Below, one piece after another: positions 4,863 to 25,254 of a DNA stretch of 64,000 nt. The stretch is from NCBI RefSeq assembly GCF_000504285.1, contig NZ_KI632511.1, positions 1,113,372-1,177,371 on the forward strand. Direction: 5' to 3'. Numbering within the stretch: the first letter of the stretch is position 1; every line of letters begins with the position of its first letter. The stretch is from Actinospica robiniae DSM 44927. GTDB taxonomy: Bacteria > Actinomycetota > Actinomycetes > Streptomycetales > Catenulisporaceae. The translations under genes and the position numbers were made by a program. The notes beneath the pieces are model-generated. The model was not told where the DNA came from. It saw nothing but the letters and a program-made list of their open reading frames with translations, and searched no databases.

Positions 4863-5456
4863 TCACGCGTCCGTCTTGCCGTGCGCCTCGGCAAGGCGGT
4901 CGCGTGCCTGGTCGTAGAGCGCCGCGAAGGGGGCGACGACGGCTTCGGTGCGCGGATGACCGGCCAGTGCGGGGTGCGGACGGGTCGGGGCGATCCGGCC
5001 GGCCCGCTTCATCCAGCGGCCGAGCTCCTCCTGCTCCTGCGCGCTCAGTTCGGCCAGCACGGCCGGGAACTCGTCGCTCTCCTCGTGCGCGGCGTGCAGC
5101 TCGAACGCCTCCTCGAGCAGCCGCAGCCGCGGCAGGAACTCCGGGCCCCGCACGTCGGTGCGCTCGAGATCGGCCAGTTCCCGCGCCAGCGACTCCTCCT
5201 CGTCGGTGGACGCGCGGGTCAGGCCGGCCGGCAGCAGCTTGTCGGTGACCGTGCGCAGCACCACGTCCTCGGCGGCCTGGTGGGTCGCGATCAGCTCCCG
5301 CAGCGTGTCGAACGCGGCCGACCGGTCTGCCCCCTCGGTCGCGGTGACGGCGTCGAACTGGTCGCGGATCCGAGCGTGCTGCTCGTAGAGCACCGCGACG
5401 ATCGTGTCACCCGGAAGGCGGGCGGCGGTCATGCGCTCTTCGTGCGCCGTGTCCAT
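4863..5456 (-). CDS. Hemerythrin HHE-domain protein
   Basis: A 197-residue helical protein with the hemerythrin-like His/Glu pattern (YEQHARIRDQF, IATHQAAEDVVL, FELHAAHEESDEFPAVL). Such proteins bind a di-iron centre and are linked to oxygen, nitric oxide or redox stress. An open frame runs further upstream, but the ATG at 5456 was chosen because it has an AAGGGGTG ribosome-binding site at the right distance and begins directly before the domain. It is divergent from the GCS2 gene. The C-terminal ~60 residues (after the HHE region) are Arg/Pro/Ala-rich and unassigned. Confidence 0.88.
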   Translation of the reverse strand: MDTAHEERMTAARLPGDTIVAVLYEQHARIRDQFDAVTATEGADRSAAFDTLRELIATHQAAEDVVLRTVTDKLLPAGLTRASTDEEESLARELADLERTDVRGPEFLPRLRLLEEAFELHAAHEESDEFPAVLAELSAQEQEELGRWMKRAGRIAPTRPHPALAGHPRTEAVVAPFAALYDQARDRLAEAHGKTDA

Positions 5457-6749: not shown

Positions 6750-6977
6750 TCAGGTGCCGGCGGCCCGGGCGTCGTCGGCCCGGGTGCGTCCGGCCTCCTC
6801 GGCCCGCCGCCGCTCGATCAGCTCGGCCTCCTCCGGCCGGTCCTCTTCCTCCAGCTCCGGCTCGCGCCACGCCTCGGCCCGGGTCGAGTGGCCGGCCCGC
6901 AGCGGCGCCTCCATCTCGTCCTTCAGCTCGTCGTCGCGCACGGGGCCGTGCTTGTCGCTGGTCCGCACTACGGTCAT
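6750..6977 (-). CDS. Small conserved hydrophilic protein (75 aa)
   Basis: A 75-residue, highly charged protein (KHGPVRDDELKDEMEAPLR then HSTRAEAWREPE) with no cysteines and no membrane segment. The pattern of a DDEL/E-rich start followed by an EAWREPE motif is one I recall from short hypothetical proteins in streptomycetes. AGGAG lies 8 bp before the ATG at 6977. It is the last gene of the minus-strand MEDS-DJ-1 unit (44-bp gap). The function is unknown; the Glu/Arg-rich C-terminal half is probably disordered. Confidence 0.75.
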   Translation of the reverse strand: MTVVRTSDKHGPVRDDELKDEMEAPLRAGHSTRAEAWREPELEEEDRPEEAELIERRRAEEAGRTRADDARAAGT

Positions 6978-7021
6978 CGTCGGCTCCTTACCTTGTCGGT
7001 GCACTGTTTTCGGTTGGTCGG

Positions 7022-7615
7022 TCACCCGGGGGCGGTCTCGGCGAAACGCTGCACCAGCGTGTCGCAGAAGATCGGCAGGTCGTCCGGGCCGCGGCTGGTG
7101 ATCAGCACGTTCGGGCCGCTCTCGCAGAGCACGACCGGCTCGTCGCGCCAGTTGCCGCCCGCGTTGCGGATGTCGGTGCGCAGGCTCGGCCACGAGGTCA
7201 GCGAGCGCCCGGTGACCAGGTCCGCCTCGACGAGCAGCCAGGGCGCGTGGCCGATCGCCGCCACCGGCTTGCCCGCGGCGAAGATCGCACGGGTGAAGTC
7301 GACGGCTTTGCTCTCGCCGCGCAGCAGGTCCGCGTTCGCCGCGCCGCCGGGCAGCACCAGCGCGTCGAACTCGTGCGGTGAGACCTCGGCGAGCGTGCGG
7401 TCCACCGGCAGCCGGGTGCCGCGGTCCAGGTACTCGAAGAGCTGGGCGTGGCCGTCCTGCGGGGACAGCAGCACGGCGTGCCCGCCCGCCTCCGCCACCG
7501 CCTCCCAGGGCTGGAGCGTCTCGGACTCCTCGGCGCCCTCGATCGCGATCAGGAAGGCCACCTCGAGCCCTGCCAGCACCTCGTTCTCGTACGCCACCTC
7601 GTTCTCCGGGTCCAT
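7022..7615 (-). CDS. DJ-1/PfpI-family protein lacking the catalytic Cys
   Basis: A 197-residue PfpI/YhbO-like protein. The flavodoxin-like fold is clear (VAFLIAIEG, FDALVLPGGAANADLL, LTSWPSLRTDIRNAGGNW, VLITSRGPDDLPIFCDTLV). The nucleophile elbow, normally AICHGPW, reads AIGHAPW, so the catalytic cysteine is a glycine; the adjacent His is kept. The codon is GGC, read directly at about 7249. Protease, glyoxalase or deglycase activity of the classic kind is therefore unlikely. It lies 20 bp after the MEDS kinase gene on the same strand; AAAGGAG precedes the ATG at 7615. Confidence 0.87.
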   Translation of the reverse strand: MDPENEVAYENEVLAGLEVAFLIAIEGAEESETLQPWEAVAEAGGHAVLLSPQDGHAQLFEYLDRGTRLPVDRTLAEVSPHEFDALVLPGGAANADLLRGESKAVDFTRAIFAAGKPVAAIGHAPWLLVEADLVTGRSLTSWPSLRTDIRNAGGNWRDEPVVLCESGPNVLITSRGPDDLPIFCDTLVQRFAETAPG

Positions 7616-20817: not shown

Positions 20818-22107
20818 TCACAGCGTCGCGCGCACCAACGCCGCAGCGAGATCCGGCAGTTCGTCGCCTTCGACCAACGATGCCAGCTTTGCAGGGTTGC
20901 GCGGGAGCCGCAGCTTGGCGGCGCCCGCCAGCGCCCGCTGATCGAAGGCGGGCCGCAGCTGCGGCCAGACGCCCTGGGCCTCGCGGCAGAAGATCTCCGC
21001 CCCGACCGGGCCGATCCGGCGGAACTCCTGGAGCAGGCGCCTGATCTCCTGAGGCTCTCCCCCGGCCTCGTCCCGGAGCCGGCGCAGGTCGCCGTGCCAC
21101 CGGTCGACCAGCAGGTTCGCGCCCTCGCCGAGCGCCGTGGCGGTGCTCTCGTCGTAGCGCTTGTAGTGTGCGCGGCCGAGCGCGTCCACGATCGACTGCC
21201 AGGACGCTCCGGCCATGGCGCGCGGCGTGCGCCAACCGGCGGCGTAGATCTCGCGCGCCGCGGCGACGGCGATGGGCGTGCTGATCCGCACCGAGAGCAG
21301 CGTGGTGAGCACGAGCAGCTGGTAGAGCGGCGACGGGGTGTCCTTGAGCCGGATGCCGGCCTCCTGCGCGAACGTGGGGCCGGACTCCTCGATCAGTTTC
21401 GCCGCGCGGTCCTTCGCCGTCCGGCCTGCGGTCCTTCCCTTGCTCTCGCTCATCGTCTTGCCAGCCTTGTCCTCGCGCTTGTCATCGGCGGCGATCCGGC
21501 TGAGCGTGCGGCCAGTGCGGGCTGAGCGCAGCCGTTGCGGGTCGGCCTCGCTGTCCGCCTTCGCGTACCGATCGGACTTCTTGACCAGCAGCCAGTCGTC
21601 CGACCCGTCGCGGCCGTTCATCCGGGTCAGCGCGAACGCGCCGTGGAGCTTGTGCCCCTCCAGCACGAAGGAGACGTGCCCCCTCTCCACGCCCTCGGCC
21701 AGCGAGATCTCCGGACCCGAGCGCCCGGCCCTGGTCCGGTTCCGGTAGGTGCCCTCGTCCCACACCATGACCGTGCCGCCGCCGTACTCGCCCTTGGCGA
21801 TCTCGCCCTCGAAGGTGCGGTACTGCATCGGATGGTCCTCGGTAGGCGTCGCCAGCCGTTTGACCTGCGGATCGTTCGAGGGCCCCTTGGGCACCGCCCA
21901 GGACTTGAGCACCCCGTCCGCCTCCAGCCGGAAGTCGTAGTGCATCCGGCGCGCGTCATGCAGCTGGACCACGAACACCGGCCGCCCGTCCCCACCCGCG
22001 CCGCCGCGGCTCCCGCCGTCCGGTTCGGCCGTCCGGTCGAAACTGCGCTTGCGCCGGTATTCAGCGAGGTGCTTGCCCGACTCGCCCATCTCGTCTCCCG
22101 TGCTCAT
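20818..22107 (-). CDS. LigD-type 3'-phosphoesterase fused to a HhH-GPD-like DNA glycosylase domain
   Basis: A 429-residue two-domain protein. Residues ~25-185 are a LigD 3'-phosphoesterase with the metal-binding signature LHDARRMHYDFRLE and the motifs SWAVPKGPS and FEGEIAKGEYGGGTVMVWDEG. After the usual RSARTGRTL linker and a Lys-rich bridge, residues ~235-429 form a helix-hairpin-helix glycosylase-like domain (LTTLLSVRIST, FRRIGPVGAEIFCREAQGVWP, RPAFDQRALAG). The EndoIII catalytic Lys position is Ala and there is no C-terminal Fe-S cluster. It probably trims damaged 3' ends in NHEJ. The ATG overlaps the mgtC stop (ATGA), which fixes the start and implies coupled translation. Confidence 0.88.
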   Translation of the reverse strand: MSTGDEMGESGKHLAEYRRKRSFDRTAEPDGGSRGGAGGDGRPVFVVQLHDARRMHYDFRLEADGVLKSWAVPKGPSNDPQVKRLATPTEDHPMQYRTFEGEIAKGEYGGGTVMVWDEGTYRNRTRAGRSGPEISLAEGVERGHVSFVLEGHKLHGAFALTRMNGRDGSDDWLLVKKSDRYAKADSEADPQRLRSARTGRTLSRIAADDKREDKAGKTMSESKGRTAGRTAKDRAAKLIEESGPTFAQEAGIRLKDTPSPLYQLLVLTTLLSVRISTPIAVAAAREIYAAGWRTPRAMAGASWQSIVDALGRAHYKRYDESTATALGEGANLLVDRWHGDLRRLRDEAGGEPQEIRRLLQEFRRIGPVGAEIFCREAQGVWPQLRPAFDQRALAGAAKLRLPRNPAKLASLVEGDELPDLAAALVRATL

Positions 22108-22616
22108 CGCTTGCCTCGATTCTCGTCATCGGCGCGCTCGGCGTCGTGGTCGCGGCCCAGCGGCAGCCGCCGCGTGATCGGACCGGTGAAGCTCAGCAGC
22201 AGATAACTCGCCGTCGCCAGGCTGGCGAGCACCGGCAGGCCGGCGGCGCAGGCCGCGCCGATCGCGGCGGTGAGCCAGATCCCGGCCGCCGTGGTCAGCC
22301 CGCGCACCGAGCCGCGGTGCACGAAGATCACGCCGGCGCCGATGAAGCCGACCCCGGAGACGATCTGCGCGGCGACCCGGGACGGGTCGAGCACGATCGT
22401 GCCCCGGGTCAGCACGTCGCCGAACCCGTACTTGCTGACCAGCATGAACAGCGCCGAGCCGATGCCGACGACGGTGTAGGTGCGCAGCCCGGCGTCCTTC
22501 TGCCGCCACTCGCGCTCCAGCCCGACCAGCCCGGAGAGCAGGAAGGCCAGCACGAACTCGCCGACCTGCGCCCAGCCTTCGCCTTGGGACTGGATCACCG
22601 ACGCAGCCGCCACCAT
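22104..22616 (-). CDS. mgtC: MgtC/SapB-family membrane protein
   Basis: A 170-residue protein with four to five transmembrane helices. The family core is exact: [48 protein letters not shown] and [17 protein letters not shown]. MgtC proteins modulate membrane energetics or the F1Fo ATPase and help survival in low magnesium or acid, though the exact action varies. The short C-terminal tail is charged and cytosolic. Its stop codon overlaps the start of the DNA-end-processing gene by 4 bp. The upstream SigB-type motif is among the best in the window. Confidence 0.92.
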
Positions 22617-22657: not shown

Positions 22658-22681
22658 GTACCCGCCCGCGCCGGTGGTAAC
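22658..22681 (-). promoter_or_regulatory. SigB-type promoter for mgtC-phosphoesterase operon
   Basis: On the minus strand GTTA (22681-22678), a 14-bp spacer and GGGTAC (22663-22658). The -10 matches GGGTAY exactly. The start codon at 22616 is about 40 bp downstream. Confidence 0.55.
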
Positions 22682-22812
22682 CAGCCTGGCCGCCCGCCTG
22701 CCGGCCCGCGACGCAAGGACCCGGGAATCAGCAGGGTGGCGCAAGCGCCGGCGGCGACCGGGCGCCGCGCGCGACAGAATGCCCGACGGCCCCGGCTGAG
22801 CCGGCGCGGGTG

Positions 22813-22836
22813 GTTTACCGGCCGGGCTTCGGGTCA
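22813..22836 (+). promoter_or_regulatory. SigB-type promoter candidate for orphan nuoD
   Basis: GTTT at 22813-22816, a 14-bp spacer and GGGTCA at 22831-22836, about 55 bp before the nuoD start. The -10 differs from GGGTAY at one or two positions. It is back to back with the mgtC promoter in the same 275-bp gap. Confidence 0.4.
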
Positions 22837-22891
22837 CGAAGAGGGCGAGATCTCCGTCTCCGGCGGGACGCGCGAACAAGGAGGCGCCGTC

Positions 22892-24202
22892 ATGGCCGAG
22901 GCAGACCCACCGGGTGCGCCGTACGTGGACATGGGCGCGGACGCGAGCTGGGAGAGTGTCCTGACCGCGGTGCGGGAGGACCACCAGGAGCGCATCGTCG
23001 TCAACCTCGGGCCGCAGCACCCGTCCACCCACGGCGTGCTCCGGCTGATCCTCGAACTCGAGGGCGAGACGGTCATCGAGGCGCGCTGCGGCATCGGGTA
23101 CCTGCACACCGGGATCGAGAAGAGCTGCGAGTACCGCAGCTGGACCCAGGGCGTCACCTTCGTCACCCGTGCGGACTATCTGGCCCCGATGTTCAACGAG
23201 GCCGCCTACTGCCTCGGTGTGGAGGCACTGCTCGGCGCGACCGAAGAGGTACCCGAACGGGCCAACGTCATCCGGGTCATGCTGATGGAGCTCGGCCGGA
23301 TCGCCTCACACCTCGTCGCCATCGCCACCGCCGGCATGGAGCTCGGCGCGATCACCGTGATGACGTACGGCTTCCGCGAGCGCGAGCTCATCCTGGACAT
23401 GCTCGAGGCGATCACCGGCAACCGGATGAACCACGCCTACATCCGGCCCGGCGGCCTGGTCACCGACCTGCCGCCGGACACCCCGGAGCGCATCGCCGAG
23501 CTGCTGCCGCTCCTGCGCGAGCGGCTCGAGGACTACCGGCGGCTGCTCGACGGCAACCCGATCTTCCGCGGCCGGACCGAGAACGTCGCATACCTCGACA
23601 CGGCCGGCTGCCTCGCCCTCGGCGTCACCGGGCCCATCCTGCGCGCCACCGGCCTGCCGCACGACCTGCGCAAGTCCCAGCCCTACTGCGGCTACGAGGA
23701 CTACGACTTCGACGTGCCGACCCGCACCGACGCCGACGCCTTCAGCCGCTACCTCGTGCGCGTGGACGAGATGCACCAGTCGCTGCGGATCGTCGAGCAG
23801 TGCCTCGAGCGGCTGCGTCCCGGCCCGATCATGCTGGAGGATCCGAAGATCGCCTGGCCCGCGCGGCTTTCGCTGGGCGGGGACGGGCAGGGCATCGATC
23901 TGGACCGGGTCCGGCACATCATGGCCGAGTCGATGGAGGCCCTGATCTACCACTTCAAGCTGGTCACCGAGGGCTTCCCGGTGCCGGCCGGCCAGGTCTA
24001 CACGGCGGTCGAGTCCCCGCGCGGCGAACTCGGCGCCCACCTGGTCAGCGACGAGGGCACCCGGCCGTACCGGGTGCACCTGCGCGACCCGTCCTTCAAC
24101 AACCTCCAGGCGCTGCCCGCGCTGATCGAGGGCGGCCTGCTGGCGGACGTCGTCGCGGCGATCTCCTCCGTCGACCCGGTATTGGGCGGCGCGGACCGCT
24201 GA
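22892..24202 (+). CDS. nuoD: NADH-quinone oxidoreductase subunit D (orphan NuoD)
   Basis: A 436-residue protein of the 49-kDa/NuoD family: [63 protein letters not shown] and a C-terminal [14 protein letters not shown]. In complex I this subunit lines the quinone pocket with NuoB. No other nuo gene is nearby, so this copy is an orphan. It may be a stress-specific replacement subunit or part of another hydrogenase-like complex. The ATG at 22892 has AAGGAGGC 7 bp upstream; an open frame upstream is ignored. Confidence 0.92.
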
Positions 24203-24315: not shown

Positions 24316-25254
24316 ATGCCAGCGAGTTGGACGGGTTCGATCGTTTTCGGCATGGTCAGCGTCCCGGTGCAGCTGATGAAAGCCACCGAGGCGCACTCCG
24401 GGCCGAGATTCCACCAGGTGCACGAGAAGGACGGCGGTCGGATCCGGCTCAAGCGGTTCTGCGAGGCCGAGGACAAAGAGGTGCCCTACGCCGAGATCGC
24501 CAAGGGCTACGACCTCGGCGACGAGGAGGAGCTCATCCTGACCTCGGACGACCTGGAGAAGCTGCCGATCCCCAGCAAGGGCACGATCGAGCTGCTCGCG
24601 TTCGTGGACACCGACACCTTCGATCCGATGCAGTTCGAGACGGCGTACTACGTGGCGCCCGGCAAGCGCAGCCCGGCCAAGCCCTACGCGCTGCTGCGCG
24701 AGGCGATGCGCGAGTCCGGCAAGGTGGCCGTCTCCAAGATCACCCTGACCACGCGCGAGTCGCTCGCCGTGCTCCGGGTCAAGGACGACCTGCTGGTGCT
24801 GCACACGATGCTCTGGCCGGACGAGCTGCGCCCGGCCACCGGGATATCGCCGCCGACCGCCGAGGTGCGCGCCGAGGAGATGAAGATGGCGCACACCCTG
24901 ATGGACGCGCTCTCGGAGAACTTCGACATCGAGGCGCTGCACGACGAGTACCGCGAGGCGGTCGAGGAGCTGATCGAGTCCAAGACCGAGGGCCGGGTGC
25001 CCACGCCCGCCTCGAAGCCGGCGCCGGTCTCGAACGTGGTGGACATCACCGCGATGCTCAAGCGCTCCATCGAGGCGCAGACCTCCCGCTCGGGCGGCTC
25101 GGGCGGGGCGAAGGGGCGCGGCGGCGGCGCGGCCAAGAAGGCCCCGGCCAAGAAAACCGCCCCGAAGAAGACCGCGGCGGCCAAGCGGACCACGGCGAAG
25201 AAGACCGCAGCCAAGAAGAGCACGGCGGGGCGGGGCGGGCGCAAGGCCGGCTGA
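24316..25254 (+). CDS. ku: Ku-type DNA end-binding protein
   Basis: A 312-residue bacterial Ku. The start is canonical (SWTGSIVFGMVSVPVQLMKA), and the core contains IRLKRFCEAEDKEVPYAEIAKGYDL, SKGTIELLAFVDTDTFDP and ELRPATGISPPTAEVRAEEMKMAHTLMDALSE. The homodimer threads onto broken DNA ends and recruits LigD-type ligase. The last ~55 residues are a Lys/Ala/Thr/Pro-rich tail (repeated AKKTA) like a histone H1 tail, expected to bind DNA non-specifically. GGAGG lies 5 bp before the ATG. The separate ligase and phosphoesterase genes lie within 5.3 kb. Confidence 0.95.
   Translation: MPASWTGSIVFGMVSVPVQLMKATEAHSGPRFHQVHEKDGGRIRLKRFCEAEDKEVPYAEIAKGYDLGDEEELILTSDDLEKLPIPSKGTIELLAFVDTDTFDPMQFETAYYVAPGKRSPAKPYALLREAMRESGKVAVSKITLTTRESLAVLRVKDDLLVLHTMLWPDELRPATGISPPTAEVRAEEMKMAHTLMDALSENFDIEALHDEYREAVEELIESKTEGRVPTPASKPAPVSNVVDITAMLKRSIEAQTSRSGGSGGAKGRGGGAAKKAPAKKTAPKKTAAAKRTTAKKTAAKKSTAGRGGRKAG

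Follow-up and report, generated by a model that had tools for sequence, protein, structure and literature searches.

An end-healing domain in one chain with a glycosylase fold

Why would a 3'-phosphoesterase of bacterial non-homologous end joining (NHEJ) share a polypeptide with a domain that has the fold of DNA glycosylases? The question is raised by one gene of the soil bacterium Actinospica robiniae. In the window, i.e. the whole stretch of 64,000 nucleotides that we analysed, an unbroken open reading frame runs on the reverse strand from an ATG at 22107 to a stop at 20818. Its 429 codons encode a fusion of a LigD-type 3'-phosphoesterase (hereafter PE) and an HhH-GPD-fold domain (hereafter GLY), delimited by profile matches (PF13298, TIGR02777) and AlphaFold modelling. 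The PE domain covers residues ~43-182 (21562-21981, reverse strand), the linker residues 183-234 (21406-21561, reverse strand) and GLY residues 235-429 (20821-21405, reverse strand). The linker, shorter in A. durhamensis, contains an internal ATG (Met219, 21451-21453, reverse strand) near the point where free-standing GLY genes start.

The identity of the first half is clear. It matches PF13298 over residues 48-162 (144 bits, cut-off 31.1) and TIGR02777 over residues 14-179 (204 bits, cut-off 144). In P. aeruginosa LigD, the metal- and phosphate-coordinating residues are given in sections of PMC8656161 as His42, His48, Asp50, Arg52, His84 and Tyr88, together with Gln40 and Ser61. All eight are found in the fusion at a constant offset of +8 (Q48, H50, H56, D58, R60, S69, H92 and Y96). 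Since the active site is complete, the PE half should be active, as far as one can judge from residues. It is also the single PF13298 match in the 9.92 Mb, one-contig genome. The fusion chain has no ligase domain, as a DNA ligase D would, and the ligase is a separate gene (19021-20043). Models of defence systems gave no match to the fusion protein, nor to the hemerythrin-domain, ligase or MgtC proteins encoded around it. An AlphaFold model of the full-length fusion does not inform on the arrangement of the domains: 2 of the 18 alignment rows cover the PE half, which is modelled at pLDDT ~35.

The neighbourhood of the fusion

Downstream of the fusion lie a hemerythrin-domain (HHE) gene (20059-20730, reverse strand) and a free-standing ATP-dependent DNA ligase of the NHEJ type, from the LigD ligase-domain family (19021-20043, reverse strand; TIGR02779, 272 bits, cut-off 228). 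Ku is encoded on the forward strand at 24316-25254 (TIGR02772, 278 bits, cut-off 150), 2.2 kb from the fusion start. A gene that by eye resembles nuoD, encoding an NADH dehydrogenase subunit, lies at 22736-24202, between Ku and the mgtC-fusion pair. Both species that carry the fusion share this arrangement, with the fusion followed by the HHE gene and the NHEJ-type ligase, and Ku beyond the nuoD-like gene (by eye). The A. robiniae genome further has three matches to LigD-type polymerases, all outside the window, and three to ATP-dependent ligases, one of which is the ligase at 19021-20043. Because the PE, polymerase and ligase matches stand apart, the NHEJ parts of this bacterium are separate genes. 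Further along are an anti-sigma-factor-antagonist-like gene (18664-19014) and, adjoining it, a very large hybrid sensor kinase (14535-18608) in which several HAMP-like repeats accompany regions that resemble GAF, kinase and receiver domains, both genes being recognized by eye.

The gene upstream, mgtC (MgtC/SapB family, 22104-22616, reverse strand), has a stop that overlaps the fusion start within an ATGA. The earlier note on this DNA, made from the letters alone, had pointed out this overlap, which is as described, and had built on it a tie between end repair and a magnesium and acid-stress protein. As a property of the system, this tie is not supported: no mgtC lies in the 10 kb that surround the fusion of A. 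durhamensis, nor was one found at the GLY or PE loci of the other genomes searched for it (flanks of 1.5 to ~7 kb). The note had also proposed a near-consensus SigB-type promoter for the two genes. A box is indeed present upstream of mgtC (GGTT-N15-GGGTAC, of the form GNNT-N15-GGGTAC, 22658-22682, reverse strand) and another precedes the HHE gene (GCAT-N15-GGGTAT, 20779-20803, reverse strand); by consensus, we take both to be of SigB type. Yet, the frequency of such boxes is that of chance, with 3 matches in the 64-kb window and 3.3 expected from 30 Markov-shuffled copies, and nowhere in the window does the strict form GTTT-N14-16-GGGTAT occur. In A. durhamensis a GCAT-N15-GGGTAC box also stands before the HHE gene (contig L051, ~5111-5135), although the two species have little else in common in this intergenic region. 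The ligase operon might thus be under a stress promoter.

A family with the fold of endonuclease III and its own conserved residues

Sequence searches say little about the second half of the protein. A Pfam search with residues 235-429 matched no family. The best we found was a weak similarity to TIGR03252 (15.5 bits, cut-off 136.5). PF00730 is absent from the matches of 28 GLY members at E 1, and a search of the PDB with the GLY profile, taken to E 10, gave 47 matches, the best at 0.039 and none of them a DNA glycosylase. The structural model is more telling. Built on an alignment with 27 relatives, it has a mean pLDDT of 96.4, and Foldseek ranks complexes of EndoIII with DNA first (E 1.1e-3, probability 1.00; nothing at E 0.001 or below). 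Structural alignment with VIA-align gave Z scores of 16.1 for NTHL1, 15.2 for EndoIII, 14.9 for the DUF2419 queuosine hydrolase, 14.2 for MUTYH and 13.8 for SsOgg. As modelled, GLY has the HhH-GPD fold of this superfamily. The initial description of the gene as a phosphoesterase joined in one frame to an HhH-GPD-like glycosylase domain is thereby borne out in both halves, by the profile matches for the first and by the model, which the note had asked for, for the second.

The residues of the domain give more specific hints. The hairpin reads R-I-G-P-V-G, and Asp389 follows its second glycine at +20, a spacing that we take to be that of the catalytic Asp of EndoIII. In place of the EndoIII lysine (+2 of the hairpin) stands Glu371, and lysine is missing from this position in all 74 homologs; its absence had been read correctly from the single sequence. 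Since GLY has a single cysteine and thus lacks the four-cysteine motif of EndoIII, it should have no Fe-S cluster. Over the same 74 homologs (which entered with a GLY match at 1e-5, duplicates, short rows, L014 and L049 being left out), Y315, Y318, D319 and R375 never vary, R317 is conserved in 73, and position 376 holds Glu in 72 homologs and Asp in the other 2. Because they are near-invariant, we regard Y-x-R-Y-D (Y315-x-R317-Y318-D319) plus R-E (R375-E376) as the signature of the GLY family. It is present in all 13 aligned copies that are associated with PE or fused to it.

Conservation of Asp389 is high without being complete: it is kept in 65 of the 73 homologs with a residue at this position and replaced by G, S, Q or L in the other 8. 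These eight (L027, L031, L038, L039, L041, L043, L045 and L046) have mostly intact YxRYD and RE motifs, and are either inactive or have a different catalytic centre. This brings forward the main rival to a catalytic GLY, namely that the domain is a weak or dead enzyme, which binds abasic or distorted DNA and brings PE to it, leaving the base bond uncut. The Mag2 protein of S. pombe reportedly binds such DNA, and Foldseek also matched the GLY model to structures of Mag2. A pure reader would fit with the Schiff-base lysine missing throughout the family, and with a canonical Asp that can be lost while Y81, Y84, D85 and R141 (the four invariant residues, in domain numbering) never are. But the Asp is kept in 13 of 13 aligned copies associated with PE or fused to it, and so strongly conserved a set of polar residues suggests chemistry. 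We thus regard a mere reader as unlikely. Given a link between GLY and PE, the chances that GLY catalyses base excision seem to us somewhat better than even.

GLY and PE tend to occur together and are sometimes neighbours

Free-standing GLY genes are common in Actinomycetes, which allows one to ask how often they accompany PE. In a sample of 246 genomes of the class, GLY was matched strongly in 66, while PE was matched in 127 and Ku in 188. GLY and PE occur together in 47 genomes, GLY only in 19, PE only in 80 and neither in 100 (p = 2.8e-4, Fisher test). We did not count as GLY-positive the 19 of 85 genomes with GLY matches whose matches were all weak (~20-31 bits). The association persists upon stratification into six families (odds ratio 3.7, p = 0.018), with strata compiled by hand from lists that omit some genomes without matches. 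It is strong in the Streptomyces-family sample (n = 45), where 21 genomes have both, 6 GLY only, 2 PE only and 16 neither (p = 1.3e-5). These statistics, like those on adjacency below, ignore most of the phylogeny. Since 19 of the 66 GLY genomes have no PE, GLY can act without it.

In the Streptomyces family, the two genes are also neighbours more often than random positions in an 8-Mb genome would predict. Of the 90 genomes of this family with both, 10 have GLY and PE no more than 2 kb apart, for ~0.06 expected. These are 2 of 21 genomes in a first sample (G040 and G049) and 8 of 69 in a second (G558, G564, G583, G619, G621, G623, G628 and G660; 0.045 expected). The second sample consists of 70 genomes in list order (G554 to G702), chosen for having at least two whole-protein matches regardless of distance; two weak paralog rows (G567 and G689) were left out. 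GLY and PE are far apart in the other 80 of the 90 genomes. Among the class genomes listed with both genes outside the order of the Streptomyces family, 0 of 18 have them within 2 kb (hand count).

The layouts of these neighbours are diverse. In G049, G619, G621 and G623 the GLY start overlaps the PE stop by 4 nt (GTGA or ATGA); the GLY proteins are 85-98% identical and the layout is shared by descent. PE and GLY stand in tandem in G564 and G583. GLY is divergent from PE in G628, and faces the genes of a Ku-PE-LIG array in G040 and G558. Four further genomes, outside the adjacency counts, extend this variety: G773 has PE-POL-GLY, G801 has PE-POL with GLY facing, G807 shares with G660 a POL-LIG-PE array with GLY divergent, and in G838 PE and GLY follow one another in a single reading frame, interrupted by one stop. 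Hence, GLY is found repeatedly next to PE and further genes of NHEJ, which strengthens the proposal that the fusion links base-damage recognition to end cleaning. Such proximity is genuine but confined to a minority of genomes, in the order of A. robiniae and once in Amycolatopsis. In the latter case, A. taiwanensis encodes a 526-aa PE-POL protein without a ligase domain (L057, 3196-4776), and GLY follows 194 bases on. The PE of G583 (L120, ~6758-7324) has a C-terminal half that is unlike PE and looks frame-shifted, and overlaps the GLY start by ATGA; here, GLY seems to outlive a decayed PE.

The fusion is specific to one lineage of Actinospica

The fusion itself has a narrow distribution. In A. 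durhamensis CSCA 57 (L051, identical in G001) an unbroken frame runs through PE and GLY, with a linker that is 13 residues shorter at one place, in frame. The two fusion proteins differ at ~20% of residues, and between the two genes the third codon position varies most in PE, linker and GLY alike: in PE identity is 0.75 at third positions, against 0.86 and 0.88 at the other two, and third-position identity is 0.54 in the linker and 0.64 in GLY. In A. acidithermotolerans (L052) GLY and PE are unfused and on different contigs. The fusion is thus lineage-specific, since a third species of the genus has two separate genes. In a tree of 16 rows the two fused copies group together (support 90/82), beside the A. 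acidithermotolerans copy. Whole-protein searches of 60, 391, 394 and 70 partly overlapping genomes gave an unbroken two-half match in A. robiniae and A. durhamensis alone, among the matches listed; the fusions rank first in these lists. One scan of viral contigs revealed no GLY relative, and among 500 matching plasmid records none had one place covering 80% of the fusion. The copy on a Kitasatospora plasmid is annotated 'endonuclease'.

So narrow a distribution suggests a second rival. The fusion might be a neutral joining of neighbours, with domains that work independently and no mechanistic meaning. It occurs in two of three Actinospica species and in no other genome among the matches listed; a single stop separates the two domains in G838; PE and GLY are not neighbours in most genomes; and Met219 in A. 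robiniae, absent from A. durhamensis, is probably a relic start. As this ATG was kept near the start sites of free-standing GLY genes, a second, shorter product is possible in A. robiniae. Yet, although about a fifth of the residues differ between the two fusion proteins, each retains PE and GLY in an intact common frame, and the 48 codons before the GLY match of A. durhamensis contain no in-frame ATG, GTG or TTG. Added to this, PE and GLY adjoin in several other layouts. Neutral joining seems rather improbable to us. A functional link between GLY and PE in the order of A. robiniae we regard as likely.

A putative two-domain enzyme of end preparation

Since GLY is fused to PE in two Actinospica species and lies beside it among break-repair genes in some related bacteria, it probably helps to ready damaged ends for rejoining. 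On present sequences and models, we would describe it as probably an accessory of split NHEJ-type end repair, a monofunctional glycosylase or a reader of damaged bases working with PE. More precisely, our preferred reading, to which we give a probability of about one half, is that the fusion is a two-domain end-preparation enzyme of a split NHEJ system, in which GLY is linked to PE and is most likely a monofunctional glycosylase. PE heals 3' ends, including by trimming 3'-ribonucleosides according to PMC8656161; bacterial Ku and LigD reportedly act on abasic sites and 5'-dRP ends (PMC4245934 and PMC4770248); and LigC binds glycosylases, as discussed below. A glycosylase-fold partner of PE would fit in among these activities.

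We picture the following order of steps. With its complete active site, the PE half would remove 3'-phosphates and 3'-ribonucleosides. The GLY half would flip a damaged base located in the break or close to it and, most likely, excise this base. This excision would be monofunctional, using Asp389 without a Schiff-base lysine. Incision of the AP site by another activity would then block the 3' end, which PE, being tethered, would heal before polymerase and ligase act. As for its origin, GLY is normally separate, and one lineage of Actinospica would have lost the stop between neighbouring PE and GLY genes.

A third rival takes GLY away from damaged bases. GLY might act on ribonucleotides or free nucleotides, as DUF2419 does, and cooperate with ribonucleotide trimming by PE and with an NHEJ polymerase that adds ribonucleotides. 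The Z score of DUF2419 is tied with that of EndoIII, and the trimming of 3'-ribonucleosides by PE, as described in PMC8656161, would provide the context. But the top structural matches are DNA glycosylases, and the hairpin and the spacing of the Asp are those of EndoIII. This makes action on nucleotides a long shot. Finally, an assembly or sequencing error that joined two genes, a frameshift in particular, might be suspected from the separate PE and GLY of the third Actinospica species, and was named at the outset as what would undo the case; it is excluded by the unbroken frame of the independent A. durhamensis assembly, the in-frame difference in the linker and third-position variation in all parts of the gene.

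The preferred reading of a two-domain end-preparation enzyme invites a wider and more tentative one. Breaks caused by oxidation or radiation have damaged bases near their ends, and the usual picture of bacterial NHEJ comprises Ku and the three activities of LigD. It is conceivable, though we lean against asserting it, that the end-joining machine of actinobacteria has in GLY a dedicated subunit for the recognition and excision of damaged bases, which clears base damage beside the break and hands the end to PE. GLY would then be the first NHEJ component with a glycosylase fold, and the Actinospica fusion would be this partnership made covalent. If so, end processing in NHEJ would be of four kinds, and end joining would be physically linked to base excision repair. 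In any case, the GLY family, of glycosylase fold, is widespread and has no Pfam model, and in part of its range its gene lies next to that of PE, overlaps it or is fused to it.

Comparison with known systems

Neither the PE family nor the HhH-GPD fold is new. Their joint architecture, the place of GLY among NHEJ genes and any role of GLY were not found in our searches of the open-licence PMC literature, which listed no paper that ties a glycosylase-fold gene to the PE or NHEJ loci of Actinomycetes. We therefore take the fusion to be a novel arrangement. In Streptomyces, NHEJ sets are split and variable, with Ku, ligase, polymerase and nuclease domains as separate genes, as the main text of PMC5124664 describes them; the A. 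robiniae parts are separate genes in the same way. That main text has 0 occurrences of 'endonuclease' and of 'glycosylase', and does not mention GLY under those words.

Each half of the fusion resembles known proteins and departs from them. With the LigD 3'-phosphoesterase (TIGR02777/PF13298), including the free-standing PE of Methanocella and Streptomyces, the fusion shares the full domain and the eight active-site residues. Yet, LigD-type PE is known alone or with POL and LIG domains, whereas here it precedes a glycosylase-fold domain. With endonuclease III and NTHL1, GLY shares the fold, the hairpin GxG and, presumably, the Asp 20 residues after the hairpin, but it has neither the catalytic Lys nor the Fe-S cysteines and does not match PF00730. 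Its sequence is weakly similar to that of the HhH-GPD-type base excision repair protein TIGR03252; a score so far below the cut-off indicates a different family. Likeness to the DUF2419 queuosine nucleotide glycosylase is in fold alone, at 12% identity, and the DUF2419 protein is longer and has an RNA-nucleotide as substrate. A functional parallel is mycobacterial LigC, which with its polymerase binds base excision repair glycosylases and works in base excision repair (sections of PMC5663958). There too, an NHEJ-type ligase and polymerase are associated with glycosylases, but through contacts between separate proteins (FPG and MPG), whereas Actinospica has a covalent fusion to PE of a different glycosylase-fold family.
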